A stretch of DNA of 41,110 nucleotides from Clostridia bacterium (GTDB lineage Bacteria; Bacillota; Clostridia; Oscillospirales; Acutalibacteraceae): positions 1 to 41,110 of the forward strand of contig JAFRXS010000047.1 in NCBI GenBank assembly GCA_017443405.1, written 5' to 3'. Numbering within the stretch: position 1 is the first letter of the stretch; every line of letters begins with the position of its first letter. The notes beneath the pieces were generated by a model that was not told the DNA's origin, did not search any database, and worked only from the letters and a program-made list of their open reading frames with translations. The position numbers and the translations under genes were made by a program. Positions 11,184 through 30,910 of the stretch are shown here, in pieces.

Positions 11184-13118
11184 TCACTGCGTACAGGACG
11201 GATAGGTCAGCTCCCTGTGCTCGCGGGGATTCGTCAGCAGCGTTGCGCTGCGGCGTTTGCCGAACCAGATTATCTCCCTGGCGTAGACGTCCCAGCGGTC
11301 GATCTTCTTTTCCGTTTCGATCTTAAGGACCGTTCGCTTTTTCTCGAGCGGCGCGTATCTGTTTTCGTAGATGTTTTCAAAATACGTATAAAAGTCGTAG
11401 GCACTGTCGACCGTGACGGTAGCCTGCCCCGGCTGACGGATGATCGCGCACTGATAACCGAACAGCTCGCCGCAAATCTCTCTGGGGATGCCGAGGGAGC
11501 CGACGAAATCGGCGATCTCTCGGCGGAAGGTATCGAAGTTGTAGGCGAGGTCCAGGAAGACGCCCTCCTCGAAGTACCAGCCCACCTTGCTGAAGATATC
11601 GTTCTGATAGCACCAGTCGGAATGCTCCGTATCGAAGGTCTTATGCTCGATCATCCGGAACAGCGAGCAAATATACCGGCTTTCGTCGGAAAAGATGTAG
11701 TCGAGCAGACGGTTGTAAAAATCGAAATAGGAGATCCCCAGTTCATGCCTGGCGTAGAGCGCCACGCAGCGCAGCAGGCCGAGATGGTGGAAGCTCTGAA
11801 GGGTGACGGAGAACATATTGGCCCTCACCCAGTCCGCCTTTGACATGTCTTTCGTTTCGACAACAACGTCGTAATATTCCTGAACGCCGTTGAAATTCGC
11901 GGGATAGTGGATGCCGTGGAGCGGCTGACGCTCCCAGCGTATTCCGAATTTGTCCCGGTATTCCGGCTGAGCGAGCGGCGCGTTGCAGTAGACCTGGCAG
12001 GTATAAACCGTCATCGAGTTGTGCTGACCCGCTTCGAGCAGCGAGCAAAGCCCGTGACAGAAGCTCTCATAGGTCTCGCCCGGCAGGCCGAGTATCAGCT
12101 CGGTATAGGTCGGGATGCCGACCGCAGAATAGCGGGCGTTGAGCTCGGTATAATACTGCATGTTCAGGTTTTTCCTGCCGATGTTTTCAAGCACGGCGGG
12201 GTCCATTGACTGATAAGCGAGCGTCACGCCCTTGTCCGCTCCGTTCGCGTTTAAAAGCGTGCCTATCTCGAATACGAGGTCGTCGCTGTTCTTCGCGTAA
12301 CAGGGCTTGAATATCTGGGGGTAGCCTGTCGCGTTATGCCGGTCGACAACGTACCGCGCGATCTCAAGATCGCGTTTCGCGATGCCGAAATTCGAATCGG
12401 CGCAGTAGCAGTACGGGATCTTGTGCTCGCTCATCCAGTCGATCTCGGCCTTGACCTTTTCCATCGGGAAAAAGCGCAGACGCTCGGAAAAACACCAGTC
12501 GCAGAACGCGCAGGTGTAGGGGCAGCCGCGGTTCGTCTCCAACGTCCCCTGAAAGTTGATCTGCGGATAGTCGGTGAGCATCCTGTCGAAAAGACCGGCA
12601 AGATACGGGGAGGGAAGCTCGTCAAGCGGGAAGCACTTGTCCCGCTTGGGAGTCGTGACGCAGCGGTCGCCGTCGCGGTAGGATATGTCGCGCACCGAGG
12701 CTATCCCGCCGCGGTCCGCAGCGAGAAGGAATTCTTTGAAGCAGAACTCGCCCTCGCCGTGCATCAGAACGTCGATATATGGTTCCGTCTCAAGAAGCTC
12801 CGTGTTGAACGGGATATTGTGCCCGCCGAAAACTATCAGACAGTCCGGATAGCGTTCCTTGATCAAGCGCGCCAGCTTCTTGTTGTACTCCATGTTCCAT
12901 ACGTAACAGGAGAAACCCACTACGGCAGGATCGCGGACCTCTTCGAGCGCCTCCGATAACTGCTTGCGCATGTAAAGGATATCTCCGAGAGCGTATATCT
13001 CATTGACTGCCGGATCTGAAAAAACGTACGCGGCGATACAGCCCGCCGCGTAAGGCAGGTAGGCGATATAATCGCTGTAAGTTACGTTCACCTGAACGAG
13101 ATATACGTTTTTTTTCAT
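11184..13118 (-). CDS. CDW-type B12-binding radical SAM protein (paralogue E)
   Basis: A 644-residue protein. Residues 1-150 form the B12-like domain (MKKNVYLVQVN, AYLPYAAG, VVGFSCYVWNMEYNKKLA, VFGGHNIP, HGEGE). Residues 190-430 are the radical SAM barrel: ETNRGCPYTCAFCDW (C199, C203, C206), CADSNFGI, AYQSMDPAVLENIGRKN and ELILGLPGETYESF. The last 200 residues are family-specific and contain NRYAPLEKK and WDVYAREIIWFGKR. The start ATG at 13118 gives the KNVYLVQ N-terminus shared by the paralogues. Upstream in-frame codons lie in the leader. It heads an operon with the CotH fusion and a membrane protein. It has its own promoter and is divergent from paralogue D. Likely a cobalamin-dependent methylase or C-C bond-forming enzyme; substrate unknown. 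Confidence 0.88.
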   Translation of the reverse strand: MKKNVYLVQVNVTYSDYIAYLPYAAGCIAAYVFSDPAVNEIYALGDILYMRKQLSEALEEVRDPAVVGFSCYVWNMEYNKKLARLIKERYPDCLIVFGGHNIPFNTELLETEPYIDVLMHGEGEFCFKEFLLAADRGGIASVRDISYRDGDRCVTTPKRDKCFPLDELPSPYLAGLFDRMLTDYPQINFQGTLETNRGCPYTCAFCDWCFSERLRFFPMEKVKAEIDWMSEHKIPYCYCADSNFGIAKRDLEIARYVVDRHNATGYPQIFKPCYAKNSDDLVFEIGTLLNANGADKGVTLAYQSMDPAVLENIGRKNLNMQYYTELNARYSAVGIPTYTELILGLPGETYESFCHGLCSLLEAGQHNSMTVYTCQVYCNAPLAQPEYRDKFGIRWERQPLHGIHYPANFNGVQEYYDVVVETKDMSKADWVRANMFSVTLQSFHHLGLLRCVALYARHELGISYFDFYNRLLDYIFSDESRYICSLFRMIEHKTFDTEHSDWCYQNDIFSKVGWYFEEGVFLDLAYNFDTFRREIADFVGSLGIPREICGELFGYQCAIIRQPGQATVTVDSAYDFYTYFENIYENRYAPLEKKRTVLKIETEKKIDRWDVYAREIIWFGKRRSATLLTNPREHRELTYPSCTQ

Positions 13119-13191
13119 TGCCGTAAGTCCGCAGTTTGCGCCCGGACGGTATGGTTTCCGACCGACAGCACCAATAATAATATCCATACTC

Positions 13192-13220
13192 ATTTTACAA
13201 CAATTTGCGCCGAAAAGCAA
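13192..13220 (-). promoter_or_regulatory. Promoter of paralogue E operon
   Basis: Minus strand: TTGCTT (13220-13215), 17-base spacer, TAAAAT (13197-13192). The leader to the ATG at 13118 is about 70 bases. Confidence 0.6.
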
Positions 13221-13247
13221 CAAAGCAGACCGTAATTATTTCCTCGA

Positions 13248-13275
13248 TTGACAAAGCGACTGATTTTTGTATAAT
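13248..13275 (+). promoter_or_regulatory. Consensus promoter of paralogue D
   Basis: Perfect TTGACA (13248-13253), a 16-base spacer and perfect TATAAT (13270-13275), about 80 bases before the start codon. It is back to back with the minus-strand promoter at 13192-13220. Confidence 0.8.
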
Positions 13276-13360
13276 TAAATATCAGAAAAACCGTTCGACC
13301 CGTTCACGGAAAGCCGTGTGCGCCGCGGCGGATCTTTCGTGACGGCAGGAGGAGGATCGG

Positions 13361-15289
13361 GTGAAAAACGTATATTTCGTTCAGGTCGACGTCGCCGCGA
13401 CGCTCGGCGCCCGTAACGCCTACCTGCCGTATACGGCGGGTATTCTTGCCGCGTCCGTATGGAGAAGCGAAACGGTAAGAAGAAACTGCGAATTCAAGGA
13501 ATTCATTTTCCTTCGTGAAAACACCGAGACCGTCCTGCGCCGTATGGAACGGCCGTTCCTTGTCGCATTTACCAACTATTGCTGGAACACCGAGTACAAT
13601 AAGCTGCTCGCCGCCGGCATCAAGGAGAAATGGCCGGAATGCGTGATCGTTTTCGGCGGGCATAATATTCCCGACGATTTTTCGTTCCTGGAAGAGTATC
13701 CGTATATTGACGTGCTCTGTCACGGTGAAGGGGAGGACGTTCTGCGGGACCTTTTCGACGCGCTTCTTCTCGGTCTGCCTCTCGGCGGCGTTGCCAATAT
13801 CTCTTACAGGGATCCCGGAAAAGGACCGGTCCGGACCGCTTACGCCTGTCCGGGACCTATTGAGTCGTTTCCGTCGCCGTATCTCGACGGATGGTTAGAC
13901 CCCATCCTCGAACAGCACCCGGATATTACGTTCAACGCGATACTTGAGACGTCACGCGGCTGTCCGAACAGGTGCGCCTACTGCGACTGGGGTCTGCTTC
14001 AGTCAAAGGTCCGTCAGTTCCCGATAGAAAGAGTCAAAGCGGAGATCAGGTGGTTCGGCGAGCATAAGATAGCGTTCGTCTGGGGCGCGGACGCAAATTT
14101 CGGTATGTTCCGCCGCGACCTTGAGCTGGCCGATGAACTTGTAAAGACAAAAAAGGCGACCGGATATCCCGAAAAGATGCGTGTGAACTACGCGAAGAAC
14201 AATTTTGAAAACGTTTTCGCGATAGTTAAGAAGTTCAAGGAATGCGAGTTCGACCGCATCGGCGCGACGCTGTCTTTTCAGAGCCTTTCGCCCGTCGTAT
14301 TAAAGAACATCGGCAGGACGAACGCCGATATAGAGTTCTATAAAAATCTGCTCACCAAATACAACACCGAAAAGATGAAGACCTATTCGGAGCTGATACT
14401 CGGTCTGCCGGGCGAGACCTACGAAAGCTTCATCTCCGGTATCGGCAAGCTGTTTGAGATCGGGCAGCATTTTGTGTTCGAGGTCTACGCCTGCATCGTT
14501 CTTCCCAACGCGCATCTCGGCAGGCCGGAAGTCATCGAAAAATACGGCATCAAGACGGTCAGAACGGAGATCGTGCGCCCGCATTTTGAGGACGTGGAAT
14601 TCAACGTGCCGGAATACAATACCATCATCACCGAGACCGCCGACATGCCGCGGGACAAGTGGATACGCGCCAACGTGTTTTTCAGCGTCGCGAAAGCGTT
14701 TCACGGGAACGGTCTTCTGCGCGCCTTCGCTGTATACCTTTATTATCACAAAGGCATACCCTATGAGCGGTTCTACGACGGCATCATCGATTACTGTGAA
14801 AAACGCCCCGGGCTCGTTCTGGCAAAGGTCGTCGAAGAAGTCAGAAAAGACGCTCTTCAGCAGAGCGTCGGCGGCAGCAAGTATAAGCTGCAGGTAAAAC
14901 AAACCGGGGACGTTATCTGGAACCCGCACGAATACATAGTCCTTAATCTTCTTGAGGATATCGACGGGTTCTACCGGGAAATACGACCGTATCTTGAATC
15001 GTTCTGCATCGAAAAAGACGTTTTCGGGGATCTGCTGGCTTATCAGGAGGGCATCCTGCGCAAACCCCGCGAAGCGGAGAGGACAGTCGACCTTGACTAT
15101 GACGTCCACGGTTTCCTGTCGGACGTATACGTCAACAACGTCCACCCGCTCAAAAAGAAACGGCACAGGCTCGTTATGAGGGACACGGCTCCGTCGCCCG
15201 ACTGGAAGCACTTCGGGAAATACGTTATCTGGTACGGGCATATGGGCTGGGCTTCATACAAGGACGATATTACCGTGACCGATCCCTGA
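13361..15289 (+). CDS. CDW-type B12-binding radical SAM protein (paralogue D)
   Basis: A 642-residue protein starting with GTG; AGGAGGAGG lies 5 bases upstream and decides the start. The B12-like domain has KNVYFVQVD, AYLPYTAG, FTNYCWNTEYNKLLA, VFGGHNIP and HGEGE. The cluster motif is C201, C205, C208 (ETSRGCPNRCAYCDWG), then WGADANFGMF, LSFQSLSPVVLKNIGRTN and ELILGLPGETYESF. The C-terminal domain has the equivalents NNVHPLKKK and WKHFGKYVIWYGH. Around the cluster it is closest to paralogue A (shared ETSRGCP.RCAYCDWG, SKVRxFPxER and WGADANFG). It is monocistronic, ending at a strong terminator. It presumably performs a reaction of the same kind as the others on a related site. Product unknown. 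Confidence 0.9.
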   Translation: MKNVYFVQVDVAATLGARNAYLPYTAGILAASVWRSETVRRNCEFKEFIFLRENTETVLRRMERPFLVAFTNYCWNTEYNKLLAAGIKEKWPECVIVFGGHNIPDDFSFLEEYPYIDVLCHGEGEDVLRDLFDALLLGLPLGGVANISYRDPGKGPVRTAYACPGPIESFPSPYLDGWLDPILEQHPDITFNAILETSRGCPNRCAYCDWGLLQSKVRQFPIERVKAEIRWFGEHKIAFVWGADANFGMFRRDLELADELVKTKKATGYPEKMRVNYAKNNFENVFAIVKKFKECEFDRIGATLSFQSLSPVVLKNIGRTNADIEFYKNLLTKYNTEKMKTYSELILGLPGETYESFISGIGKLFEIGQHFVFEVYACIVLPNAHLGRPEVIEKYGIKTVRTEIVRPHFEDVEFNVPEYNTIITETADMPRDKWIRANVFFSVAKAFHGNGLLRAFAVYLYYHKGIPYERFYDGIIDYCEKRPGLVLAKVVEEVRKDALQQSVGGSKYKLQVKQTGDVIWNPHEYIVLNLLEDIDGFYREIRPYLESFCIEKDVFGDLLAYQEGILRKPREAERTVDLDYDVHGFLSDVYVNNVHPLKKKRHRLVMRDTAPSPDWKHFGKYVIWYGHMGWASYKDDITVTDP

Positions 15290-15311
15290 TAAAGGGGCAA
15301 AGAATATATGC

Positions 15312-15355: not shown

Positions 15356-15365
15356 GCGGTCGTCC

Positions 15366-17204
15366 TTATCTGAATTCGGGAGCTACGCGATCTTCCGAGC
15401 GGTAAAAGCGGACCCGGTCGCGCCCGAATTCGTCAAGATAGAGGAGCAGGTGATCGAAATCAGAAAAGACAACGGGAAAGAGTGAATATGCGTTTTCGTC
15501 GAGAAATGCGAACTGGAAATCGCGACGGTACGCTCTTCGCGTTTTCATATCCACGCCCTCGATCTCGTCGCGGTAAACGGTATAAAATTCGCCGTTTTCC
15601 TCGTAGCTGAGGACGCCGTTGTTGCCGATACCCTCCTTGAGCAGCGAGTGCTTCTTCAGCGCGAAGTTTGAAAGCGTGACGCTGTTGATTATGTCGCGGT
15701 TGTTCCTTATGGTCGCCATCGTGGCTTCGATCTCATCCGGAGTTTCCGTAGGATACCCGAAGATGAAAAGTCCGTTGTTCCAGATGCCGGCTTCGTGCGA
15801 ATCCCGAAGGATCTTCATCCGGTGTTCGGCGTCGATACCCTTATTCATAAGACGCATTATCCGCAGGGATTCACATTCGTAGCCCCACATGAACAGCCTC
15901 GCGCCCGCGCGGTACAGGTTGCCGAGGACTTCCGGTGTGAAGCCGTCCTCAAGACGCGCAAAGGAATAGAATCTTATATCAAGCCCGGCTTCTGTGATCG
16001 CCAGCGCGAGCCTGTTGTAGAACGCGGGCGGTATGCACTCGTCTGAAAACAGGAAGTACCGGGCGCCGAATCTGTCGCGATAATACTTCAGTTCTTCTAT
16101 TATCCTGCCGATCTCTTTCGGGCGGTAGCCCTGCTGCCCGTAGTGGTAGTCGCAGAAACTGCATTTCCCCCAGTAGCACCCTTTGGAAAGCTGGACGGGA
16201 AAAACGGGCGAGGGGGTCAGATAAAGCGAAAGATCGTAATCTGAAAAATCAGCGGGAGCCGTTTCGTTCATGTCGATACGCAGCCCGGAAAAACCGGTCG
16301 AAACGCATTCGTTCTTTTTTCGGTCGAAATAAACGAGGTTGGTTACGTCGCGAATATCGCGTTTTCCGTCAAGATATTCGCAAAGCTCCGTAAGCGCGAG
16401 TTCTCCGTCGCCGATAGTGAGATAGTCGACGTAATCGGTAAAGATCTCGTCGTGTTTCATCATATCCGCGCATATCTGCGTGGCGTAATTGCCGCCGAGC
16501 AGCACCTTCGCGGACGTATTGTTTTTGAGGAAAAAAGCCAGAGTGAAAACGGGGATCAGCTGGCTGAGATCCGTAAGCGACAGGCTGACGGCGTCGTAGT
16601 TTTCTTCCGCGATCCGCCTCGCGGTCTTCTCCATGTAACCGAAAAACATATTGACGCTTCTGTCGTGCACCTGAGCCTTAACAGAGTCCCACGACAGCGG
16701 GAACAGGGGATTTGCGAAATAATTGTCAAGGTCCAGCTCGTTCGGCGCGAAGGGCATTGACAGCACACGCAGGGCAAGCCGGAGGATATGCATCGCCCGG
16801 GCCATCTTCTCGGGAACAAAAAACTCTTCCCGGTTTTTCATCACGCGGACCGCCGAATCTGTATGCGTCCTGATATAGTCCGTCTCATCGCCGTGTTCGG
16901 CGTAAAACTTCTTGAGGGAAAGGTACTTTATGAGTTTAGTCTTTTCTTCATAAGTGCCTTCCGCGCGGACCTTTTCGGCGTCCGTCTTCTCGCATTCCGC
17001 CGAAAGCGCCGCAAGGTCGGCGCGGGCGCGTTCATCCGCGGCAGCCACGCGGGCGTCCGTGAGTATATCGTTGAAGAAAAGCGCGTTGAGATCGAGCGCT
17101 GTTGCTTCAAATCCCGCCTTCATCAGCTGCGCTTTAAGCAGCGGCGCGGCAAGATACGGGGAAACGGGATACCACTGCGGGGGGTGGATAAGCAATACTC
17201 TCAT
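15366..17204 (-). CDS. PQWYP-type radical SAM protein with Cx4Cx2C motif (paralogue 2)
   Basis: A 612-residue protein. The N-terminus MRVLLIHPPQWYPVSPYLAA and later TDLSQLIPVFTLAFFLKNN, VLLGGNY and YLTIGDGELAL form a B12-domain-like region, split by a helical insert of about 130 residues. The cluster motif is GCYWGKCSFCD with C343, C348 and C351, that is Cx4Cx2C rather than Cx3Cx2C. It continues with YFLFSDECIPP, FYSFARLEDGFTPE, MWGYECES, NKGIDAEHRMKILRD and FIFGYPTETPDE. The end has DFDHLLLYLDEFGRDRVRFYR. The ATG at 17204 is chosen because AAAGGA precedes it and the PQWYP motif is N-terminal. It is a paralogue of the gene at 21887. It lies 161 bases after the DUF6273 pair. Radical SAM membership is strong; reaction unknown. 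Confidence 0.85.
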   Translation of the reverse strand: MRVLLIHPPQWYPVSPYLAAPLLKAQLMKAGFEATALDLNALFFNDILTDARVAAADERARADLAALSAECEKTDAEKVRAEGTYEEKTKLIKYLSLKKFYAEHGDETDYIRTHTDSAVRVMKNREEFFVPEKMARAMHILRLALRVLSMPFAPNELDLDNYFANPLFPLSWDSVKAQVHDRSVNMFFGYMEKTARRIAEENYDAVSLSLTDLSQLIPVFTLAFFLKNNTSAKVLLGGNYATQICADMMKHDEIFTDYVDYLTIGDGELALTELCEYLDGKRDIRDVTNLVYFDRKKNECVSTGFSGLRIDMNETAPADFSDYDLSLYLTPSPVFPVQLSKGCYWGKCSFCDYHYGQQGYRPKEIGRIIEELKYYRDRFGARYFLFSDECIPPAFYNRLALAITEAGLDIRFYSFARLEDGFTPEVLGNLYRAGARLFMWGYECESLRIMRLMNKGIDAEHRMKILRDSHEAGIWNNGLFIFGYPTETPDEIEATMATIRNNRDIINSVTLSNFALKKHSLLKEGIGNNGVLSYEENGEFYTVYRDEIEGVDMKTRRAYRRDFQFAFLDENAYSLFPVVFSDFDHLLLYLDEFGRDRVRFYRSEDRVAPEFR

Positions 17205-17365: not shown

Positions 17366-18463
17366 TTAATTGTCTCCATTCGGAATGTCGGTGACAAGGT
17401 CATCAAGTTGCACAAGTCTGACTGCTGGTCTTATTCCTGTATCAAGACCGTCCGGACTATATGGAAGATAGTATGCGCAGCAAACACAACCCTCAAAATT
17501 CACTGCACTGTTCAATGTTGCCCCCTTCGGGGTACTGTCTTTTACTGCCGAACGAAGCCACCAATAACAGGCACCGTTTGTATGTGTCCAGTTTCCCTGA
17601 CTTTTAGCATAATCCGTGGGATATGCCAATCTGAGCTGATCGTGTTTTTCCGGTCTGGAGGAAAAGCCGTTTTTAGGATCGGTTGCCTCGGCATAAGACA
17701 AAAGAAAGATGCGGTCATTGAAGTCTTCTGCGTTTGTTTTATTATTATGTGGTGTGGAATTACCGAGATCCGTATATATGATACCTTCTGTTTCGGCTTC
17801 CGAAAAAGCCGAATTTATAAATGTTGAATTCAGCCATTGCCGTATATCGCTGGTATAATAGTCTGCGGCAATTATCTTAAAATCAGGGTCCTTATAGAAT
17901 TCCGGCGCATTCAGTCCTTTTTTTTGCTGTTTAATGTAAATGACATTTTCAATCGGCTGGGAATCTAAAACCATATCGCTTAACAGCAGATTATCATCTG
18001 AGCTTAATACTATCCAACGGATAGGTTCATAGCGATACCAGTATACAGAATTCAATGCAATGTCATATGACTGCTGCGTTGTTTTGCTCGATTGCTGGTG
18101 ACAAAGATGCGCACGAAAGTCCGATAGTTTAATCGCTCTGTATTTTTCATTACTGTATTCGACGTCTGCGAAACACATATAATCCGACTGGACTGCAGAA
18201 CCGACAGTTCCGTTTCCATTATAGTAACCATAAGACTTCCAGTCTAAAGGAAGACTGTTTAATTTTTCAATCAGATTTATATCTTTGACTTGTGATTGAG
18301 GATAGCTTCCAAAATAAATATAGTGCGCATCTGAGTTTTTCTCTTCGATGTATGATTCCGAAAAACTGAAAGTCATAGCATGCCGCATAAGAACAAATCC
18401 GCAACAGAGAAGCAGTAATACGCCTAAAAATAAAACGAAAAGGAACGATTTTTTATTTCTCAT
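17366..18463 (-). CDS. DUF6273-like secreted or anchored protein (copy 2)
   Basis: A 365-residue protein. Residues 6-30 are an N-terminal membrane segment (FLFVLFLGVLLLLCCGFVL), probably an anchor or uncleaved signal. The rest is predicted outside the cell and shows FGSYPQS, EPIRWIVLSSDD, DIRQWLNSTFINSAFSEAE, a W-rich stretch near GACYWWLRSA and DTGIRPAVRL. These fit the DUF6273 pattern (FGxYPQ ... W ... WLRS ... RPA) common in surface proteins of gut Firmicutes. Function unknown. Its ATG overlaps the stop of copy 1 by four bases (ATGA). Base composition is visibly more AT-rich than the surrounding radical SAM genes, which suggests transfer from elsewhere. Confidence 0.7.
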   Translation of the reverse strand: MRNKKSFLFVLFLGVLLLLCCGFVLMRHAMTFSFSESYIEEKNSDAHYIYFGSYPQSQVKDINLIEKLNSLPLDWKSYGYYNGNGTVGSAVQSDYMCFADVEYSNEKYRAIKLSDFRAHLCHQQSSKTTQQSYDIALNSVYWYRYEPIRWIVLSSDDNLLLSDMVLDSQPIENVIYIKQQKKGLNAPEFYKDPDFKIIAADYYTSDIRQWLNSTFINSAFSEAETEGIIYTDLGNSTPHNNKTNAEDFNDRIFLLSYAEATDPKNGFSSRPEKHDQLRLAYPTDYAKSQGNWTHTNGACYWWLRSAVKDSTPKGATLNSAVNFEGCVCCAYYLPYSPDGLDTGIRPAVRLVQLDDLVTDIPNGDN

Positions 18464-19629: not shown

Positions 19630-19797
19630 ACACCCTCCAGAATCGCGTTGGCATGTGGATATGGGATTAATCAGTCGAGTTTTTCATTTGAACGGTGTTC
19701 AGTCACCGAAATCGGAACGCAGAGCCACAAAAGAGTGTTGGATTATGGCGCTCTCAAAAGCGTAAAAAGCGGCACGTTGAGATCGTTCGTTCTTTCA

Positions 19798-19884
19798 ACA
19801 TGGAGCGCGGGCACGGAATACCTTCGGATCTACCGATACGCGCACTTCTATCCCCGGATCAGGAAAAAATACGGAATGAAATAA
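19798..19884 (+). pseudogene. C-terminal remnant of a B12-type radical SAM gene
   Basis: The plus-strand frame ends EYLRIYRYAHFYPRIRKKYGMK and a stop. PRxRKKYG plus the stop position match the C-terminus of the radical SAM protein at 5978 (FHPRTRKKYGLL). Nothing upstream in this frame looks like radical SAM sequence, and no start with a ribosome site is present. It is read as the tail of a deleted related gene on the opposite strand to its neighbours. The rest of 19630-19892 shows no gene; it must contain the promoter of the DUF6273 pair, which I could not place with confidence. Confidence 0.5.
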
Positions 19885-19892
19885 CGGCCGGA

Positions 19893-21886: not shown

Positions 21887-23713
21887 CTACGTCTGTTCTT
21901 TTTTGTACTGCAGACGGTAGTCCCGCACGAAATCCCTGCCGTATCTTGACAGGTAAAGCAGCAGATGGTCGGTATCCGTGAAGCCGAGGCTCCACAGACA
22001 GTCCGCCGTCTGCGCGAGGAAACGGCGCTCGAACGTCATGCGGTCGTGCTTGACCTTTTCCATCGTGGTGTTCACCGAATGGTAGCTGCAGGAAACATGG
22101 AAATCGCCGTTTGATTTGTAATCGGTGATCCCGACCTTGTCAAGCTCGTTTTTCAGTATGGCGTTTTTCTTGAGCGAGAAGTTGGAGGGCGTACAGCTGT
22201 TGATGAGCATGCGGTCCTCGATCACGTCTATCGTCGCCTGAAGCTCTTCCGGCGTTTCGGTGGGATAGCCCAGAAGGAACGTGCACTGCGTCCACATGCC
22301 TATATCTACGCAGTCGCGCAGTATGCGCATTCGCACGTCGGGGTCGATGCCCTTGTTCATCAGCTCCAGCAGACGCGGCGAAGCCGCTTCAAACCCCCAG
22401 GAGAAGTATTCCGCGCCGGAATCGTGCAGCTTTTTGAGCAGCCCGCGCGTGAAACCGCGGTCGAGCCTTGCGAACGAATAGAAGTGTATGCGTATGCCGC
22501 GGGCGTTGAGCTCGTCGATGAATTTATCGTAGAAGCGCGGCGGCACGGCCTCGTCGACAAAGATGAAGTGATCGACGCCGTAGCGGTTTTTCAGGTATTC
22601 CACCTCGTCGGCGGCGTGCCTGACGCCCTTGATGTCGAATTTCTGCTGACCGGTATAGAAATCGCAGAACGCGCACTTCCCCCAGTAGCAGCCCTTTCCG
22701 AGCTGGACCGGCAGGACCGTTTCCGGTGAGAAGTATTTCGAGAGATCGTAATCGTCGAAATCGGGGAACGAGAGAGCGTCCATATCAAGCAGCGGAGCCG
22801 GTTCGTTCGCGGTCACCTGCCCGTCCCGGAGCCGGACCAGGGAGTGAACGTCTTCTATCGCCCTTCTTCCCTCCATGTATTCCGCAAGCTCGACTGCGGC
22901 GATCTCGCCGTCGCCGACCGAAACGAAATCACAGAAAAGGGTGAAGAACTCAGGGGTCTCCTTTATCTCGGTGATTATCTTGTAGATGTAATTGCCGCCG
23001 AGACAGACTTTCTTGTCGGTGCGCTCCCTGAGCATACGGGAGAGCGTCAGCGCCGGCACGAGCTGACTGAGGTCAGCTACGGAGATGCCCACAAGATCGC
23101 AGTCGGCCAGTGGCATTTCCGGCAGTTTTCTCTCGAAATAGGAGATGAACATATTGCGGTCCAGGTCGCGGCTCAGCGACTTGACGTCGGCATAGGAATA
23201 GGACATGACCGGATCGGATATGTAATTGTCAAGCATTATCTTTGCCGGTGCGTAGGGGAGGGAAATTATCTTCAGCGCGTCGACCAGCAGGTCCTTCGCC
23301 TTGAACAGAGTTTCGGGTTCGTAAAAACGCTCTCTGTCCTTCATCACCCGGACGGCGTCCTCAACTCCGTCAAGCACGCGACCGATAAAGCCGTCGCCCC
23401 GGGCAAGTAATTCGCTTATGGTCCTGAAGCGAAGAAGCTTCGTCCGGACGTCTCTTGAGTAGGAGGCGAAATTCTTCTCGGGATCGTCAAGGGAGGAAAC
23501 GAGCTCCCTAAGAGCGGGCAGTTGACGCTTCGCGTTTTCAAGGCTCTCTTCAACTGTGTTCCGGGTCAGGATATCGTTGAAAAACTCTATATTCAGATCG
23601 TAATACGCGGCGGCAAAGCCGGCGGCTTTTAACTGGCCGACCAGCACCGCGCCGGATAGATACGGATTCATCGGATACCACTGTGGCACCGAAACAAACA
23701 GAGTTTTTGCCAT
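21887..23713 (-). CDS. PQWYP-type radical SAM protein with Cx4Cx2C motif (paralogue 1)
   Basis: A 608-residue protein. N-terminus AKTLFVSVPQWYPMNPYLSG and YYDLNIEFFNDIL; then a helical insert; then DLVGISVADLSQLVPALTLSRML, VCLGGNY and FVSVGDGEIA. The cluster motif is GCYWGKCAFCD with C342, C347, C350 (Cx4Cx2C). It is followed by HFIFVDEAVPPRFY, HFYSFARLDRGF, SWGFEAASPRLLELMNKGID, FLLGYPTETPEEL and the tail DTDHLLLYLSRYGRDFVRDYR. AGAGG lies 5 bases before the ATG. It sits between the 2Fe-2S reductase and CDW paralogue C in the operon. It shares overall architecture with the 15366 gene. Substrate not predictable. Confidence 0.87.
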   Translation of the reverse strand: MAKTLFVSVPQWYPMNPYLSGAVLVGQLKAAGFAAAYYDLNIEFFNDILTRNTVEESLENAKRQLPALRELVSSLDDPEKNFASYSRDVRTKLLRFRTISELLARGDGFIGRVLDGVEDAVRVMKDRERFYEPETLFKAKDLLVDALKIISLPYAPAKIMLDNYISDPVMSYSYADVKSLSRDLDRNMFISYFERKLPEMPLADCDLVGISVADLSQLVPALTLSRMLRERTDKKVCLGGNYIYKIITEIKETPEFFTLFCDFVSVGDGEIAAVELAEYMEGRRAIEDVHSLVRLRDGQVTANEPAPLLDMDALSFPDFDDYDLSKYFSPETVLPVQLGKGCYWGKCAFCDFYTGQQKFDIKGVRHAADEVEYLKNRYGVDHFIFVDEAVPPRFYDKFIDELNARGIRIHFYSFARLDRGFTRGLLKKLHDSGAEYFSWGFEAASPRLLELMNKGIDPDVRMRILRDCVDIGMWTQCTFLLGYPTETPEELQATIDVIEDRMLINSCTPSNFSLKKNAILKNELDKVGITDYKSNGDFHVSCSYHSVNTTMEKVKHDRMTFERRFLAQTADCLWSLGFTDTDHLLLYLSRYGRDFVRDYRLQYKKEQT

Positions 23714-23729: not shown

Positions 23730-24710
23730 TCAGTATTTCAGGGTAACGTCGCTGTCGGGAAACGCGCGGCAGGGATGGATGAAGCCGAATTTGACGTCGG
23801 CATTCCGGCGGCCGTCGCCGGAGTCGAAAAAATGCGTTACGCGGCCCTGTAAGAGTTTTGCGCGGCAAAACGCGCAATCTCCGGTACGGCATTTATTGAA
23901 AAGAAGGATGCCGTTTCGCTCAAGCGCGTTTATAAGCGGTTCGTCGGAATAACAGTCGAGACCGTTTGTTTCGCCGCCGGCGATCACGGTGCAGCGAAAC
24001 TGTTCCCGCCCGACGGAGCGCCCGGGAGCGTCGGTGAACAGTATACGGGTTCTCAGACCTTCAAAGGCGGCGGACGCGGATTCGCAGAAAACCTTCTTAC
24101 CGCATATGAAAACGGTGTCGGCTATTATGTTTTGCTTCGCGGGCAGGTCGTCCGCGCCGCGGCAGAGGTACGCGGAGGCGCGGTCGTTTTTTTGCATCGC
24201 CAGGGCGCAGCCGAGACCCGTTCCGTCGGCGATGACCGCGCAGGTCTCGCCGTCGCGCGGCGGCTGACGGAAGAAATACCCGACCGGAGGTCCCGAGAGC
24301 AGTTCGTCGCCTTCACGCAGCGCGTCTATGCGCGCAAACGCGGCGGGATCGCCTGTCGGATCGACGGTGATCTCCCAGACTCCCAAAAGCGCGTCTGCGG
24401 GCGTCCCGCTGAGGAAAAACGGGCAAAGCGCGCCGTCGATGAGCAGGTTTATGTACTGTCCGGGACGGAATACGGGGAGTCTGCCGCCGTCGCCGCGCAG
24501 CCGCAGCGCGACAGATCCGTCCGGGGCGTTTTCCCTTTCGCTGACGGTCAGAGAGATACGCTCCGGATGCAGTTCACCGCCCATCGCGACGGCTCCGGCG
24601 GGCGCCTTTATCGGCGCGGAGGACGCGCTTTCAAAATGCGCTTCCCGCACTTTTTTTATGCCGGTAATGGCATTTACGTCCCTTATCAGGGAAAACGCAG
24701 TATGCTTCAT
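23730..24710 (-). CDS. Ferredoxin-reductase-type flavoprotein with C-terminal 2Fe-2S domain
   Basis: A 326-residue protein with the order FAD domain, NAD domain, plant-type ferredoxin (PaaE/phthalate-reductase relatives). Residues about 40-130 form the FAD barrel (RPGQYINLL, PFFLSGTP). Residues about 130-230 are the nucleotide-binding part (VIADGTGLGCALAM, FICGKKVF). The 2Fe-2S ligands are C274, C279, C282 and C314 (CRTGDCAFC ... HPC). It would pass electrons from NAD(P)H singly to a partner. The ATG at 24710 is preferred, with GAGGG just upstream; a GTG at 24722 would overlap the previous stop by four bases. Within the operon it is a natural electron donor for radical SAM cluster and B12 reduction, or for the CrtI-like enzyme; this role is inferred. 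Confidence 0.82.
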   Translation of the reverse strand: MKHTAFSLIRDVNAITGIKKVREAHFESASSAPIKAPAGAVAMGGELHPERISLTVSERENAPDGSVALRLRGDGGRLPVFRPGQYINLLIDGALCPFFLSGTPADALLGVWEITVDPTGDPAAFARIDALREGDELLSGPPVGYFFRQPPRDGETCAVIADGTGLGCALAMQKNDRASAYLCRGADDLPAKQNIIADTVFICGKKVFCESASAAFEGLRTRILFTDAPGRSVGREQFRCTVIAGGETNGLDCYSDEPLINALERNGILLFNKCRTGDCAFCRAKLLQGRVTHFFDSGDGRRNADVKFGFIHPCRAFPDSDVTLKY

Positions 24711-24718
24711 CTTGTCCC

Positions 24719-26251
24719 TCACGTAAGGCTGTCGCGGCCGAGGATGTACTTTGCTTTGCCGAAGCCGGTGCTGAAAGCTGAGGAATAACCGTTGAGGTTC
24801 ATTCCGTAACCGCCGACGAATTCCAGCCCCGGGATATCGGAATACCGTTTATCCATCAGCTTGTGCGAAAAGATACTGTCCCAATTCGATTCCTTGTAGC
24901 CGTAGATCGAACCGCCGGGGGAATTCATATAGCGCGCGAAGGTGACGGGCGTCGCGATCTCCATCTCTTCGATATGACCGCGGATGTCGGTCCCCGTCGC
25001 CTTCTCGAAGACTCCTATCATTTTTTCTGTGAATCCGTCCTTGATGCGGTGGTAGTCCTCCGCGCTTACTCCGTCCCAGAAATCGGACGTGAACAGCGTC
25101 GTCATGGTGAGGATGCAGGTCCCCTCGGGGGACGCCCCGGGATAAGCGGCGTTGATACAGACCGTATTTTGTACGCCGTTGGTTTCGGGCAACGCCATAT
25201 CCCTTACCTGTTTGACCGTATCCATATCCGGATAGATGAAGTATGAATAGTCGTTCAGCCCGAGTTCGGACGAGGAACGGTCCAGTCCGAGGAATACGCA
25301 GAAACCTCTGCCTCCGAGCTCGCGCGCGTTGGTTTTTTTTGTGTCACTCACGCTTACGCGGCGCGGGTCGATCATGGTGCCGTAGACGGTGTGCGGAGAC
25401 AGGTCGCAGATCACGCAGCCGGCGCCGTATTCTCTTCCGTCCGCCGTCACGACGCCTCTTACGCCGTCGGCTCCGACAAGGACCGTTTTTACCTCGACCC
25501 CGGTGTAGAGATCTCCGCCGTTCTCCTCGAGGCAATCCGCCAGCGTCAAAGTCATTTCGAGGCTGCGCGATTTGGGTATGACCGACTTCATTTCAATATA
25601 TGAATTGACCATGCTGAGGTAGTGCATGAACGTGAGGTCGTTGCCGTCTGCGCAGAGATACGCCCAGTAGCCCCTGAATATATCCGCCGCCTTGCCCGTA
25701 AGACCAGCGGCGGCAAGACCGTCGTCGAGACTCATCGTACAGGTGTGAAGGAAATCCCTGTGGCGCAGCAGTCGGCGGATCGCGTCTGCGGGGCTTTTCG
25801 CCTTGCCCAGTTCCTCGGTGGCTTTCAGGTACTCGGCGGCAAGATCGAACACGGCTTTTATTGTGTCCCGGCTTCCCGGCACGTAACGCTCCATGGCGTC
25901 GATATACTGAGGTATGCCGAACGGCATCGTGACGTCGATGGGGTCGGGCGAGCCGTAGGTGATAAGACGGTAAGCCTCCGGTACGGCTGCCCATTCGATC
26001 CTGTCCGAGATGCCGAGAAAATCGAACAGCTGTCTCACGCTGCCGGAGCGGTTTTCGTCCCTGCCGAAGCCGCACAGCTCGTGAAGCGAAACCTCGAACT
26101 CGAACCTGCCCCGGCGGAAAGACGTCGCGACGCCTCCGGGGGTACGGTTCTTTTCGAAAAGAGCGACCTTTTTCCCGCCCTTTGCCAGCGCCGCGGCGGC
26201 AGCAAGACCGCCGTTACCCGCGCCGACGACTATCACGTCGTACTTCTTCAT
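24719..26251 (-). CDS. CrtI/phytoene-desaturase-like FAD oxidoreductase
   Basis: A 510-residue protein. The N-terminal dinucleotide fold is KKYDVIVVGAGNGGLAAAAAL (GxGxxG at 10-15), with ALFEKNRTPGGVATSFRRGRFEFEVSLHEL as in CrtI, carotenoid isomerase and retinol-saturase relatives. The C-terminal FAD motif is GLEFVGGYGMNLNGYSSAFSTG. Family members desaturate, saturate or isomerise polyisoprenoid or other lipid chains. No prenyl or phytoene synthase is nearby, so a carotenoid pathway is not supported. GGAG lies 8 bases before the ATG at 26251. Downstream, the 2Fe-2S reductase follows almost without gap. In this operon it suggests a hydrophobic, unsaturated or reducible substrate. Confidence 0.82.
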   Translation of the reverse strand: MKKYDVIVVGAGNGGLAAAAALAKGGKKVALFEKNRTPGGVATSFRRGRFEFEVSLHELCGFGRDENRSGSVRQLFDFLGISDRIEWAAVPEAYRLITYGSPDPIDVTMPFGIPQYIDAMERYVPGSRDTIKAVFDLAAEYLKATEELGKAKSPADAIRRLLRHRDFLHTCTMSLDDGLAAAGLTGKAADIFRGYWAYLCADGNDLTFMHYLSMVNSYIEMKSVIPKSRSLEMTLTLADCLEENGGDLYTGVEVKTVLVGADGVRGVVTADGREYGAGCVICDLSPHTVYGTMIDPRRVSVSDTKKTNARELGGRGFCVFLGLDRSSSELGLNDYSYFIYPDMDTVKQVRDMALPETNGVQNTVCINAAYPGASPEGTCILTMTTLFTSDFWDGVSAEDYHRIKDGFTEKMIGVFEKATGTDIRGHIEEMEIATPVTFARYMNSPGGSIYGYKESNWDSIFSHKLMDKRYSDIPGLEFVGGYGMNLNGYSSAFSTGFGKAKYILGRDSLT

Positions 26252-26277
26252 TTCGCTGCTCCGATGAAACAAACCGT

Positions 26278-28224
26278 TTATTTACTGTCGTTCCGGTCCG
26301 CTCTTTCTTCAAGATAGATACTGCGGTTGTCCTTACGTCCGAACCAAGCCACGATCTTGGCGTACTCTACCCAATCGTCGAAGTAACGGGCGTCTATTTT
26401 CATTTCGTGTTTTTTCCTGACAAGCGGCACCCGTTTGTTTTTGAGCGTATTTATGAAATAGCTCTCAAAATCATATTCCGAAACTACCGTGCCTCCACCG
26501 TAGAAAGGACGCTTTATCATAGCGCGCTGAAAACGCAGCAATTCGTCAAACAGTACGCCGTCGTCGAAGAATCCCGACAAAAACGTTTTAGCGTCTTCGT
26601 AAAACGCGTCAAGATCCCACACCGTGCAGAGGAAGATATACTCCTCGAACGGCCAGCGAACGGTTCCGAAGCGGTCGTCGGCGATCACAAATTCCGTGCC
26701 GGGGACGCCGTCCGCGATGTCCTTAAGGCGTTTTTCTACGGTCGCGACAGCTTTCGCCGCGGAATTGTCGGAACTTTGCAGCCACCGGAGCGTTCTTTCG
26801 TAGAAATCGGAGTAGCCGACGCCGTACTCGTTGTGAAGGAACAGGGAGAACAGTTGGAACAGTCCCAGGTGATGGAAGCACTGCACGGTGAACGAGAACA
26901 GGTTCATCGATATCCAGTCCCGGTCCGTCATCGAATATGTGGAAGTGATAAGATTCGAGTATTCGGTAATACCGTCGGGTATCGCTCCCTCGATATGCGG
27001 CTGGTTAAGCGGGATCCTGGAGGTGCGGATCTTATACTTTTCAACGTAGTCCGGCGAAGCCATCACGGAGCAGGGTAGCCATTCGCAGTTGTGGATGTAG
27101 ATGGAATTGTGCTGACCGAGGCACAGCAGCCGATCGATGCCCTCCGAGAAACTCTGGCGGGTCTCGCCCGGCAGTCCGAGGATCAGCTCGGTATAGGTGC
27201 TGATGCCTGCCGCGTTGTACATCTCCATAAGCTCCTTGTAATGCTCTACGGAGATGTTTTTTCTGCCGATATTGGCGAGCACCTCATCGCTCATGGACTG
27301 GAATGAGAGCGTGATGCCCTTACTCAGACTGTATTTTTCCAGGGCGCAGCCTATTCGGAAGATCCTGTCGTTACTGTTCTTCGCGTATGACGTCTGGTAG
27401 CCTTTCGGAAAACCGTTTTTCAGGTACATCTCAATGATGTAGTCGGTTATCTGCTCGTCCCTCTCGAATATGCCGAAATTGGAATCGGCGGAGCCCATAC
27501 CGAAAATTCTGTGCTCGCTTATCCAGCGTATCTCGCTGAAAACGCGTTCAAGCGGGAATTTGCGGATTCGGGATTTCATATTGCTCCAGTCGCAATATGT
27601 GCACGAATTCGGACACCCGCGCGTGGTTTCGATAAGCGCCATGAAGACCTTGTCTTTATTCTCGGCGAGTATCTTATCGAAGTACCCCGTCAGGTAGGGA
27701 GAAGGATAGTCGATCGTGTCGCCGGTTCCGAGGGGAGAGCCGGGAGTCGTGACGACGCCGCGGGCGCCGCGGTAAGAGATACCGCCGATATCTTCGACAC
27801 AGCCGATCCCCGCGGTACAGAGCAGCAGACGGCGGAACGCCTCCTCGCCCTCGCCGTGGATGAGATAATCTATATACGGGCATTCCTCAAGGAGCCCGCC
27901 GCCGGGAGTTACGTGATGGCCGCCGAAGACCGTCACGCAGTCGGGAAAGCGCTCCTTGATCCGGCGGGCGATATACTTGTTGTATTCGAAATTCCAGATG
28001 TAGGAGGAGAAGCCGACGACCGACGGGTCCTCTATTTTTTCGATCAGCTGCTCAGGAGGCTCACGCAGGAAAAAAATATCTTTCAGTTCGAAGCGGCTGC
28101 TCACCGCTTCGTCGTTCATGGCATAGGACATCAGGGCGGCGGCCGTGTAGGGCAGGTGCGCCGTGTTGCCGTAGGGATAATTCACCTGCAGCATATAGAT
28201 GTTCCGTTTCTTTTCGTCAGCCAT
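26278..28224 (-). CDS. CDW-type B12-binding radical SAM protein (paralogue B)
   Basis: A 648-residue protein. B12-like domain: KRNIYMLQVN, AHLPYTAAALMSYAM, VVGFSSYIWNFEYNKYIA, VFGGHHVT, HGEGEE. Cluster motif C204, C208, C211 (ETTRGCPNSCTYCDW), then SADSNFGIFERDEQI, LSFQSMSDEVLANIGRKN and ELILGLPGETRQSF. C-terminal domain with NKRVPLVRKK and FDDWVEYAKIVAWFGRK. The start codon lies inside the end of the glycosyltransferase gene (overlap ATGGCTGA), with AAGG 5 bases upstream, so the two are translationally coupled. This is the most diverged of the five CDW proteins around the cluster. Substrate unknown. Confidence 0.88.
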   Translation of the reverse strand: MADEKKRNIYMLQVNYPYGNTAHLPYTAAALMSYAMNDEAVSSRFELKDIFFLREPPEQLIEKIEDPSVVGFSSYIWNFEYNKYIARRIKERFPDCVTVFGGHHVTPGGGLLEECPYIDYLIHGEGEEAFRRLLLCTAGIGCVEDIGGISYRGARGVVTTPGSPLGTGDTIDYPSPYLTGYFDKILAENKDKVFMALIETTRGCPNSCTYCDWSNMKSRIRKFPLERVFSEIRWISEHRIFGMGSADSNFGIFERDEQITDYIIEMYLKNGFPKGYQTSYAKNSNDRIFRIGCALEKYSLSKGITLSFQSMSDEVLANIGRKNISVEHYKELMEMYNAAGISTYTELILGLPGETRQSFSEGIDRLLCLGQHNSIYIHNCEWLPCSVMASPDYVEKYKIRTSRIPLNQPHIEGAIPDGITEYSNLITSTYSMTDRDWISMNLFSFTVQCFHHLGLFQLFSLFLHNEYGVGYSDFYERTLRWLQSSDNSAAKAVATVEKRLKDIADGVPGTEFVIADDRFGTVRWPFEEYIFLCTVWDLDAFYEDAKTFLSGFFDDGVLFDELLRFQRAMIKRPFYGGGTVVSEYDFESYFINTLKNKRVPLVRKKHEMKIDARYFDDWVEYAKIVAWFGRKDNRSIYLEERADRNDSK

Positions 28225-28978
28225 AGAACCTTTGATAGAGGATCGAATCCTTTTTCAGCATATCGCGCTTTTTCATGAAACGGATATGCAGCGCGGTCTT
28301 GAGATAGAGCGCAGTCTGCCGGAAGGAGTTTTTTGACTTTCCCTGCTTGCGGGAGTAGCAGTCTGTGGGGATCTCGACGAAACTGTAGCCGAGCCGCAGA
28401 GGCTTTAGCACCATTTCGATCAGTATCGGGAAACCTTCGCTCTCCCATGCGATCGACTGATAAAGTTCGGTCGGGACGATCTGGTACGGTATCGTGAAAT
28501 CCGTCATCTTTACACGGAACAGGAGCTTTAAAAACTGCTGCGCGGCAAAGTTGAGCAGACGTCTCACCGTATTGTATCCGTGGAATGAACAGCCGCGGAG
28601 CCAGCGTGACGCGGACACTACGGTGTCGCCGTCACGTTTCGCGCCGGCTATCATACCGGCAACGCAGCCGAGGTCCAGAGCCATGTCCGACGCCATCAGT
28701 ATGCAGTGGCTGCCGCGGGCGATATCGATCATCTCGGTCAGGGCGGATATGCCCTTTTTGCGCTGCATGAAGGTGACGACGGGAACGTCGGACTCCATCG
28801 CCGCCAGCTCGTCCACGACCGCTTTGCACCCGGGCGTTATGTGCTGTGAATAGCCGATGATGATCTCGCGCAGATCGCGGTGATCGCAGATATCCAGTAC
28901 GCCGAGGACCGTTTCCCGCAGGGAATCCGTTTCGTCGACCGCGCCCATCATGAGCGTCACGTTCTTGAATACCGCCAT
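28217..28978 (-). CDS. Family 2 glycosyltransferase
   Basis: A 253-residue protein resembling the GT2 (GT-A fold) dolichol-phosphate-sugar synthase group: MMGAVDETDSLRETVLGVL, EIIIGYSQHITP, SHCILMASDMALDLG (metal/nucleotide-sugar site, with SDMALD in place of a classic DxD), GDTVVSASRW and IPYQIVPTELY. It is soluble, with no C-terminal membrane anchor. GGCGG lies just before the ATG, and the gene starts four bases after paralogue A ends. It probably adds a sugar from a nucleotide donor to a lipid or polyprenyl phosphate or to the operon's product. The sugar cannot be told from sequence. It is the only glycosyltransferase in the operon. Confidence 0.85.
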   Translation of the reverse strand: MAVFKNVTLMMGAVDETDSLRETVLGVLDICDHRDLREIIIGYSQHITPGCKAVVDELAAMESDVPVVTFMQRKKGISALTEMIDIARGSHCILMASDMALDLGCVAGMIAGAKRDGDTVVSASRWLRGCSFHGYNTVRRLLNFAAQQFLKLLFRVKMTDFTIPYQIVPTELYQSIAWESEGFPILIEMVLKPLRLGYSFVEIPTDCYSRKQGKSKNSFRQTALYLKTALHIRFMKKRDMLKKDSILYQRFYG

Positions 28979-28981
28979 TTT

Positions 28982-30910
28982 TTAACCGCCTGTATATTCC
29001 ACGGTGATGCCGGGGTTGAACATTCGTCCGTCTTTGCCGAACCACGCCGCGTCGCGCGCGTATTCCGGCCAGCTCTCCGTCGTTTTTTCGTTGTCTACGC
29101 GGATCCTGTTCGCTTTTTTTTGCGGAGGAGCGTAATTGCCTTCTATAGCGTCGGTAAAATACCGGTGCCAGTCATAAGAGAATTCGCGGGAGAAGTGGTT
29201 TTTGAGCGGTCTTTTGAGTATGCAGCGCTGATAACCGTACAGCTCGTCAAGGACGTCTTCTTCAATGCCCATCGATAGGAACAGCGGGCGCATCGCCGCG
29301 TAATACTCGTCAAGTCGGTATATCACGTCCATGAACGGGGTCGCGTTGGGCTCCCATGATATATTCCCGTAGACGTCGTTGGTGTAGAGGATCATGGGCT
29401 CCTCTCTCAGGACAGTATTGTAAAAACGCAATAAGACTTCGTATCCGTTATTGACGACGTGTTCCCTGCTGTGCTTCGCGAAATCGATGACAACGTTGTA
29501 GAAATCCTCGTAGCGTATATGTTTTTCATAGAAGGCATAGATGGCGAGACTGCGCAGCATGCCGTTGTGATGCATGGACTTTTCGAAGCAGGCGAAGATG
29601 TTTGCGTCCACCCACTGCTCTTCCGACATCGTATTCGTGGCGACCACGTAATTCGACCGCTCGGTTATCTCGGAATCCGTTTTTGAATGAGCCGTCAGAA
29701 AAATGACGTTCGCCGTCCGGATGCCGTATTTTTTCATGTATTCGGGCTGCGCCATCGGAGAATTCGGCAGCAGCTCGCAGTTGTATACGCTTATGAAGCG
29801 GTGCTGCCCGTTTTCAAGCAGAAGCCCCAGACCGCGGCAGAAACTCTCGTATGTTTCCAACGGCAGACCGAGGATAAGCTCCGAATAGGTGGATACCCCC
29901 GCCGAACGGTACAGGGCTATCTGCTCTCTGAGCTGGTCGAGAGTCATGTTCTTTCTCCCGATGGCCTTGAGCGTTTCGGGATTAAGGCTCTGGAAGGACA
30001 GCGTCGCGCCTTCCTTTGTTATCCCGTCCTTTTCAAGCATGCGGTTGATGCGGAATACGCGGTCCGGGTTGTTTTTGGCGTAGTTCGTGCGCAGGCGCTC
30101 CGGGTAGCCGTACTTTTCCCTGACCTCGATAAGATGCCGGGTTATCTCCTCGTCGCGCTCGTACGCGCCGAAATTTGCGTCGGCTCCCCACAGGAACGCT
30201 ACCTTGTGCTCGGCGAACCAGTCGATCTCGGCAAGGACTCGCTCCATGGGGAACAGCCTGACCTTTGACGCTGTGCAGCCCCAGTCGCAGTAGGCGCAGC
30301 GGCGCGGACAGCCCCGGGAGGTCTCAAGAATGGCGTCCAGCTGCATGTCGGGATGTTCTTCCAGTATGCTGTCGAACACCCCCGTCAGATAGGGCGACGG
30401 GTAGTCGACGCGTTCCTGCACGACCTGCTGTGTGGTGACGAAGCCGTCGCCGCTGCGGAAGCTCAGATTGTTTATGCCGCGGAAATCGGGATCATCTTTG
30501 AGCAGCTCCAGCAGAAGTGAACGGAACGCGTCCTCTCCTTCGGCGTGGATAAGGAAATCAATGAAAGGGTATTGTCTTAAAAAGCTGTCGTCGGGCGGTA
30601 CGTTGTGACCGCCGAAGATGATGACGCAATCCGGAAATCTTTCCTTTGTCTTTCTCGCGAGGGCAAGATTGTAACGCGTGTTCCAGATATAATTGGAAAA
30701 ACCGATAACGGCCGGCGTCTCGAAAGACGCGACGGCCTCGTCCGTAACCTCCCGGGTAAAGACGAAACGTTTGAAGGCGTATGCCTCCCGGACCTTCTCG
30801 TCCTCCCAGGCGCTGGCTACAAGCAGACCGGCCGCGTACGGCAGATAGGCGGCCTTGAATATGTCGCCGCCGTATGTGGTCGATGCCTGTACCATGTATA
30901 CGTTTTTCAT
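28982..30910 (-). CDS. CDW-type B12-binding radical SAM protein (paralogue A)
   Basis: A 642-residue protein, first gene of the operon. B12-like domain: KNVYMVQAS, AYLPYAAGLLVASAW, VIGFSNYIWNTRYNLALA, IFGGHNVP, HAEGED. Cluster motif C201, C205, C208 (ETSRGCPRRCAYCDWG), then WGADANFGAYERDEEI, LSFQSLNPETLKAIGRKN and ELILGLPLETYESF. C-terminal domain with GNYAPPQKK and WPEYARDAAWFGKD. AAAGGA lies 7 bases before the ATG. Its expression would be set by the promoter and palindrome directly upstream. It is most similar around the cluster to paralogue D at 13361, implying duplication within the locus. Confidence 0.9.
   Translation of the reverse strand: MKNVYMVQASTTYGGDIFKAAYLPYAAGLLVASAWEDEKVREAYAFKRFVFTREVTDEAVASFETPAVIGFSNYIWNTRYNLALARKTKERFPDCVIIFGGHNVPPDDSFLRQYPFIDFLIHAEGEDAFRSLLLELLKDDPDFRGINNLSFRSGDGFVTTQQVVQERVDYPSPYLTGVFDSILEEHPDMQLDAILETSRGCPRRCAYCDWGCTASKVRLFPMERVLAEIDWFAEHKVAFLWGADANFGAYERDEEITRHLIEVREKYGYPERLRTNYAKNNPDRVFRINRMLEKDGITKEGATLSFQSLNPETLKAIGRKNMTLDQLREQIALYRSAGVSTYSELILGLPLETYESFCRGLGLLLENGQHRFISVYNCELLPNSPMAQPEYMKKYGIRTANVIFLTAHSKTDSEITERSNYVVATNTMSEEQWVDANIFACFEKSMHHNGMLRSLAIYAFYEKHIRYEDFYNVVIDFAKHSREHVVNNGYEVLLRFYNTVLREEPMILYTNDVYGNISWEPNATPFMDVIYRLDEYYAAMRPLFLSMGIEEDVLDELYGYQRCILKRPLKNHFSREFSYDWHRYFTDAIEGNYAPPQKKANRIRVDNEKTTESWPEYARDAAWFGKDGRMFNPGITVEYTGG

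Follow-up and report, generated by a model that had tools for sequence, protein, structure and literature searches.

Arrays of TokK/CysS-like radical SAM enzymes in Oscillospirales and a possible pathway to C-methylated surface glycans

A cluster of radical SAM genes

Why would one bacterial locus carry five copies of one large radical S-adenosylmethionine (SAM) enzyme together with two of another? The question is raised by contig C159 (JAFRXS010000047.1) of a Clostridia bacterium of the family Acutalibacteraceae, whose draft genome comprises 2.55 Mb in 227 contigs; the entire contig, 41,110 bases long, is the window analysed here. A first-pass annotation had placed five CDW-type and two PQWYP-type (PQW) radical SAM genes at 11184-30910, and all seven open reading frames (ORFs) are found where it located them, each with a Radical_SAM domain (PF04055) above the Pfam gathering score. 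The answer favoured here, with roughly even confidence, is a pathway for a lipid-linked surface glycan in which interchangeable CDW radical methylases add C-methyl groups to the sugars. The glycan context of the CDW loci is well supported; that the CDW substrate is a sugar and the CDW reaction a methylation is what we infer.

The seven-gene operon that the annotation described is also real: the order CDW5-GT2-CDW4-CrtI-FeS-PQW2-CDW3 runs along the minus strand with spacing of -8 to +50 bases (successively +3, -8, +26, -4, +16 and +50, after gene starts in the window were trimmed by eye). The operon does not include CDW1, PQW1 or CDW2, the last of which is on the plus strand. The range given for the locus omits three related genes, namely the radical SAM gene rSAM0 (5978-7456), one for a polytopic protein at 7588-8391 and, at 8424-11165, a CotH-GT-C fusion gene; contig C109 of the same genome has relatives of the rSAM0 and polytopic genes, and of the membrane part encoded by the CotH gene, close to a CDW array. 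This genome encodes ten CDW proteins on three contigs, and the nine others are 38-43% identical to CDW5.

CDW proteins as relatives of TokK and CysS

All five CDW proteins of the window resemble the cobalamin radical SAM enzymes TokK and CysS. CDW5 (28982-30910, minus strand) is encoded by the first gene of the operon and has an intact Trp76 and Cx3Cx2C motif, CDW4 (26278-28224, minus strand) also belongs to the operon and CDW3 (19893-21836, minus strand; ORF listed from 21995) closes it, while CDW2 (13361-15289, plus strand) is divergent from CDW1 (11184-13118, minus strand; ORF listed from 13223). The Pfam B12-binding domain (PF02310) exceeds its gathering score in CDW1, CDW3 and CDW4 and falls below it in CDW2 (22) and CDW5 (28.4 of 32.1). 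The alignment to the TokK profile spans the N-terminal B12-binding region, and the CDW proteins are counted as having this domain. The cysteines of the Cx3Cx2C cluster are kept in all of the 122 CDW proteins compared, and the tryptophan on the lower face of the cobalamin (Trp76 in TokK, Trp75 in CysS), its position taken from the profile alignment, is kept in 120 of them.

TokK and CysS methylate unactivated carbons repeatedly in the pathways of asparenomycin and cystobactamids, respectively. The CDW proteins are far nearer in sequence to these two methylases than to OxsB (E 5e-10), and this closeness, together with the conserved tryptophan, makes it improbable that they act on sugars by a different reaction such as epimerisation, deoxygenation, ring change or C-C coupling. 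None of the five window proteins (227-270 bits) reaches the cut-off of the KedN5 subfamily (NF033712, 700 bits), and they are therefore not classed as KedN5, which also counts against the proposed function.

In a midpoint-rooted tree of the 122 proteins the nearest relative of every CDW protein sits in a different locus. The clades of CDW2 (14 loci), CDW3 (17 loci) and CDW5 (4 loci) contain one copy per locus, which does not hold for those of CDW1 and CDW4. The pattern fits separate subfamilies for separate steps that have been mixed between loci, and judging from these sequences the CDW genes are probably old modules that were shuffled between loci.

Recurrence of the CDW loci

A scan of named genomes, in which the best 80 matches were kept, returned at least 79 CDW loci. 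Among the matches listed, the 26 closest loci (L048-L071, L079 and L096; E 4e-125 or better) are all titled as metagenome-assembled genomes of the Clostridia type, and seven of the 26 titles name goat or sheep gut samples. The CDW genes of the closest listed loci mostly occur in runs, often with GT2, PQW1, PQW2 and an rSAM0-type enzyme. Locus L048 comprises CDW2, CDW1, CDW5, GT2, PQW1, CrtI, FeS, PQW2 and rSAM0, and a similar core without CrtI and FeS is found in L054, L064, L065 and L071.

A survey of the family (398 genomes, 135 genera; threshold for CDW E<=1e-80) identified CDW in 44 genomes and 18 genera. PQW is present in 13 of the 398 genomes, 12 of which also have CDW (p 9e-12), the exception being G484. 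From 27 of the 44 CDW genomes 40 loci were sampled and their genes called with profiles; 30 loci contain at least two CDW genes, 23 at least three and the largest nine. GT2 accompanies them in 27 of the 40, GT-C-like genes in 17, PQW in ten, rSAM0 in eight, CrtI in two and FeS in one. Runs of CDW thus recur together with GT2, joined in some loci by PQW and rSAM0-type genes, and the members of the set are not single, scattered and partnerless homologues, though ten of the sampled loci hold one CDW gene. The gene set is no chance cluster, as this recurrence supports. The annotation could match it to no pathway by name, and no characterised pathway with the same set appeared in the titles and abstract beginnings of the papers listed.

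Putative sugar-activation genes beside CDW

The genes beside the arrays encode GHMP kinases, nucleotidyltransferase-HAD fusions, NAD-epimerases and a small cupin-like protein, and further neighbours resemble sedoheptulose-7-phosphate isomerase and fucokinase/GDP-fucose (guanosine diphosphate-fucose) pyrophosphorylase. Their best NCBIfam models are HddA, GmhB, GmhA, in part HddC, and the bifunctional fucokinase. At least one of six tested activation genes is present in 18 of the 40 sampled loci, four of these being fucokinase loci. The HddA-like kinase is found in 31 of the 398 family genomes, 24 of which carry CDW (p 1.6e-20; counted by genus, 13 of 17, p 4e-11); the genomes of the survey share phylogeny, an effect that the genus-level counts and the occurrence in other phyla reduce without removing. 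In 13 of the 24 genomes that have both, no more than 20 kb separate the kinase from a listed CDW gene, where 1.3 are expected (counting up to three listed CDW places per genome plus the extra places of G016). The source genome has an HddA-like kinase gene on C109, at a distance of about 30 kb from three CDW genes; its contig C176 encodes a nucleotidyltransferase-GmhB-like fusion. One CDW clade of 14 members (support 0.57), which was picked post hoc, has heptose-type genes within 3 kb in 10 of 12 cases in the sampled loci compared to 21 of 96 for the others.

Some CDW loci of other phyla have similar neighbours. Three of the loci L072-L078, the seven best distant matches, contain heptose-type genes: CDW homologues are found with HddA-like and HddC-like genes in Planctomycetota (L075) and Nitrospinota (L076), and with GmhA-like and GmhB-like genes and an epimerase in Yanofskybacteria (L077). 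No such genes are present in L072, L074 and L078, each shorter than 9 kb, or in L073 (Streptomyces, 21.8 kb).

Glycosyl transfer and the cell surface

GT2 (28217-28978, minus strand) matches Glycos_transf_2 with 36.4 bits and resembles dolichyl-phosphate mannose synthase (DPMS) and ArnC; DPMS aligns to its catalytic domain with E 6.5e-19 over positions 3-230 of a 17-row profile. The CotH-GT-C fusion protein (8424-11165, minus strand) is composed of a CotH kinase domain (residues 78-366), beyond which no Pfam match is found, and a polytopic C-terminal domain whose predicted structure (residues 480-913) has the fold of a GT-C glycosyltransferase. In GT-C enzymes the acidic residues needed for catalysis are located in the first outer loop. 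The neighbouring polytopic membrane protein (7588-8391, minus strand) has a distant relative, 22% identical over 208 residues, near the CDW array of C109.

These proteins bear on two rival explanations. The first-pass annotation had envisaged successive radical steps on a hydrophobic, glycosylated product. In a reading along these lines, polyprenyl or acyl chains of a glycolipid would be methylated or joined and CrtI would reduce or desaturate the chain. A GT2 of the polyprenyl-phosphate type, a CrtI-like FAD enzyme within the operon and weak matches to radical SAM models for hopanoids and ladderanes would agree with a lipid target, but these models score far below their cut-offs, CrtI recurs in just two of the 40 sampled loci, the recurring partners serve sugar activation and glycosyl transfer, and L195, L200 and L210 have CDW, GT2 and sugar genes without PQW, CrtI or FeS. 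A target in the lipid part is accordingly considered unlikely. What survives of the suggested product is its compatibility with a polyprenyl-linked sugar route; a surface glycan is favoured over a radical-built lipid because the wider neighbourhoods contain the DPMS-like GT2, GT-C-like proteins and heptose- or fucose-type activation genes.

A diffusible, antibiotic-like glycosylated natural product that is made and exported is also doubtful. TokK, CysS and KedN5 are at home in antibiotic pathways, the Streptomyces relative (L073) adjoins a very large ORF and has no tested sugar gene, and genes resembling ATP-binding cassette transporters lie close to CDW in L060 and L096. On the other hand, a Pfam scan of 17 window proteins shows no domains of nonribosomal peptide or polyketide synthases, the GT-C-like and CotH proteins point to the cell surface, a single genome holds three groups of CDW genes and the composition of the arrays differs between genomes.

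A proposed surface-glycan pathway

Gene content, family relationships, co-occurrence, linkage and the GT-C-like fold of the model were computed, and the activities, step order, substrate, donor and acceptor are proposed on this basis. In the surface-glycan pathway a GDP-activated sugar, which may be of the heptose type in many genomes and of the fucose type in some, would be transferred to polyprenyl phosphate by the DPMS-like GT2, flipped, and then passed to a surface acceptor by GT-C enzymes such as the CotH fusion. The CDW proteins would act as radical SAM C-methyltransferases of the TokK/CysS type that depend on cobalamin. Every old subfamily would attach at least one methyl group to a sugar carbon of its own, with the sugar either still bound to its nucleotide or already on the lipid, so that the methyl pattern would follow from how many CDW genes, and which, a locus holds. 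Further radical steps may fall to the PQW and rSAM0-type enzymes, perhaps supplied by the 2Fe-2S reductase, and an accessory redox step to CrtI.

Several results weigh against this proposal. Nearly all best matches to the heptose pathway fall under the curated NCBIfam cut-offs: HddA scores are 164 (L184), 149 (source genome), 144 (L076) and 409 (L075) with a cut-off of 600, HddC scores 199 (L191) and 256 (L075, L076) with a cut-off of 300, and GmhA (TIGR00441) scores 152 (L186) and 199 (L077) with a cut-off of 209, while the GmhB cut-off (TIGR00213, 149.6) is passed in L184 (161) and missed in L191, L077 and the source genome. The nucleotidyltransferase half of the C176 gene and that of L184 are closer to MurU-type models than to HddC. 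At the threshold used the kinase is missing in 20 of the 44 CDW genomes, and seven genomes have the kinase without CDW. None of the six tested activation genes was detected in 22 of the 40 sampled loci, where gene picking missed at least one (L202), and no sugar-nucleotide gene was found on the window contig, of which 17 proteins were scanned with Pfam and the others inspected by eye. Among distant loci an activated-sugar gene is present in 6 of 30 with CDW matches of at least 200 bits compared to 1 of 23 below, a difference that is not significant (p 0.12). The known substrates of TokK and CysS are a carbapenam and a benzoate derivative, neither of which is a sugar. The first Asp of the DPMS DxD motif and the following Gln, both part of the metal site (DxD plus Gln) of that enzyme, are missing in 17 of 17 GT2 rows and the second Asp only is kept; judging from the alignment, GT2 probably works like DPMS, yet given this incomplete metal motif it is not classed as one. 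The top GT-C Z score of 13.9 is near the range that the structure comparison tool warns of for helical models. Lastly, PQW, CrtI, FeS, DUF6273 and the CotH kinase part are left unexplained.

A wider generalisation is put forward more tentatively: gut Oscillospirales may possess a modular system of surface-sugar C-methylation in which per-carbon CDW subfamilies, recombined by genome, encode the branching of heptose/deoxyhexose glycans. If the proposal is true, enzymes of the TokK/CysS type act beyond small-molecule antibiotics, an enzyme class investigated for its part in making antibiotics also has a role in shaping gut bacterial surfaces, and a bacterial surface can bear a combinatorial code of C-methylation. 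Branched C-methylated sugars could resist glycosidases, and the surfaces shown to phages or hosts could be overlooked by routine sugar analysis. The pathway predicts that these Oscillospirales lineages contain heptoses or fucoses with methyl branches, and the loci supply natural sets of paralogues for reading the site selectivity of radical methylation.

Other genes of the window and of related loci

PQW1 (15366-17204, minus strand; ORF listed from 17270) is a B12-binding radical SAM protein and PQW2 (21887-23713, minus strand) a radical SAM protein, both with a Cx4Cx2C cluster motif. In the Pfam scan the B12-binding domain scores below the gathering score in PQW1 and is not listed for PQW2, despite which the model of PQW2 matches entire structures of cobalamin radical SAM enzymes. 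rSAM0 (plus strand) is the eighth radical SAM protein of the window, is of the B12-binding kind and has relatives in the eight sampled CDW loci mentioned above. A PQW1 relative in L054 (4195-6087) has one stop codon inside the matched range. The best NCBIfam match of PQW1 (136 bits) and PQW2 (127 bits) is TIGR03975 (rSAM_ocin_1), a model for maturation of ribosomally synthesised and post-translationally modified peptides, and one might suppose that the other enzymes modify such a peptide as well. This is highly improbable: both scores are below the cut-off of 281.85 bits, operon gaps of 50 bases or less offer scant space for a precursor gene, no precursor-like ORF was seen by eye in the two larger gaps inspected, and GT2 and the sugar genes would be left unaccounted for.

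The operon also encodes a CrtI/CrtD-like FAD oxidoreductase (24719-26251, minus strand; ORF listed from 26272), related to phytoene desaturase CrtI at the superfamily level only (60 bits; TIGR02734 cut-off 238.1), and a 2Fe-2S (Fer2) reductase-like protein (23730-24722, minus strand) that may serve as an electron donor. Both are called accessory, CrtI occurring in two and the reductase in one of the sampled loci in addition to the window and L048; CrtI is also present in L048, L189 and L214. Two DUF6273 genes (17366-19629, minus strand) lie between PQW1 and CDW3, partly in DNA of low GC content (0.417 at 18001-20000), and such genes are also close to CDW in L066, L071, L201 and L203.

Elsewhere in the window there is a membrane methyltransferase of the ICMT/PEMT type (901-1476, Pfam) and, by eye, two genes resembling an iron-only hydrogenase-like protein and a NuoF/GltD-like partner (2029-5576) and a group for nitrogen assimilation (32095-41108) comprising the large and small subunits of glutamate synthase, an ammonium transporter with a PII-like tail and glutamine synthetase. 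On C109, MetH-like and MTHFR genes (L013, 3340-6667), which possibly supply methyl groups, are divergent from the array of three CDW genes, and several proteins of 615-670 amino acids (L014, 1770-18842) look mostly polytopic with a D-E motif resembling that of GT-C enzymes (by eye), one of them with a CotH domain. An Lgt-like (prolipoprotein diacylglyceryl transferase) gene lies near CDW in L050 (4937-5860) and has a clustered relative in L069, and a weakly GDSL-like protein and a carbamoyltransferase, possibly an extra sugar decoration, are encoded near a CDW gene in L056 (13186-16548).

Comparison with known systems

GT2 is alike to DPMS and ArnC in the profile alignment of its catalytic domain and in an aligned C-terminal region with Arg and Gly-x-Ser, and unlike them it sits in radical SAM operons. 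The CotH-fused domain shares its predicted fold with the GT-C enzymes ALG12, STT3, PglB and PMT but differs in the fusion to a CotH kinase domain. The structures matched by the PQW2 model are those of OxsB, AprD4 and TsrM, from which the PQW family departs in its cluster motif, all 11 rows having Cx4Cx2C in place of Cx3Cx2C; the sequence match to OxsB is weak (E 1.9e-6). CDW proteins agree with TokK and CysS in a profile match along most of TokK, in Cx3Cx2C, in the tryptophan under the cobalt and in a W two residues past the cluster, whereas CDW genes form runs that often lie beside glycan-type genes and number as many as nine in a sampled locus. A parallel to the proposed CDW reaction, compared by reaction only, is offered by the cobalamin-dependent GenK of an antibiotic pathway. 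This radical SAM enzyme C-methylates a carbon of an aminoglycoside sugar (PMC4039129). For the surface sugar itself the closest counterpart is the GDP-heptose of Campylobacter jejuni capsules, which is made by GmhA, HddA, GmhB and HddC and then altered by dehydratases, epimerases and reductases according to passages of PMC10680097, in which no radical SAM arrays appear. Families related to those of the capsule pathways are located near many of the CDW arrays.

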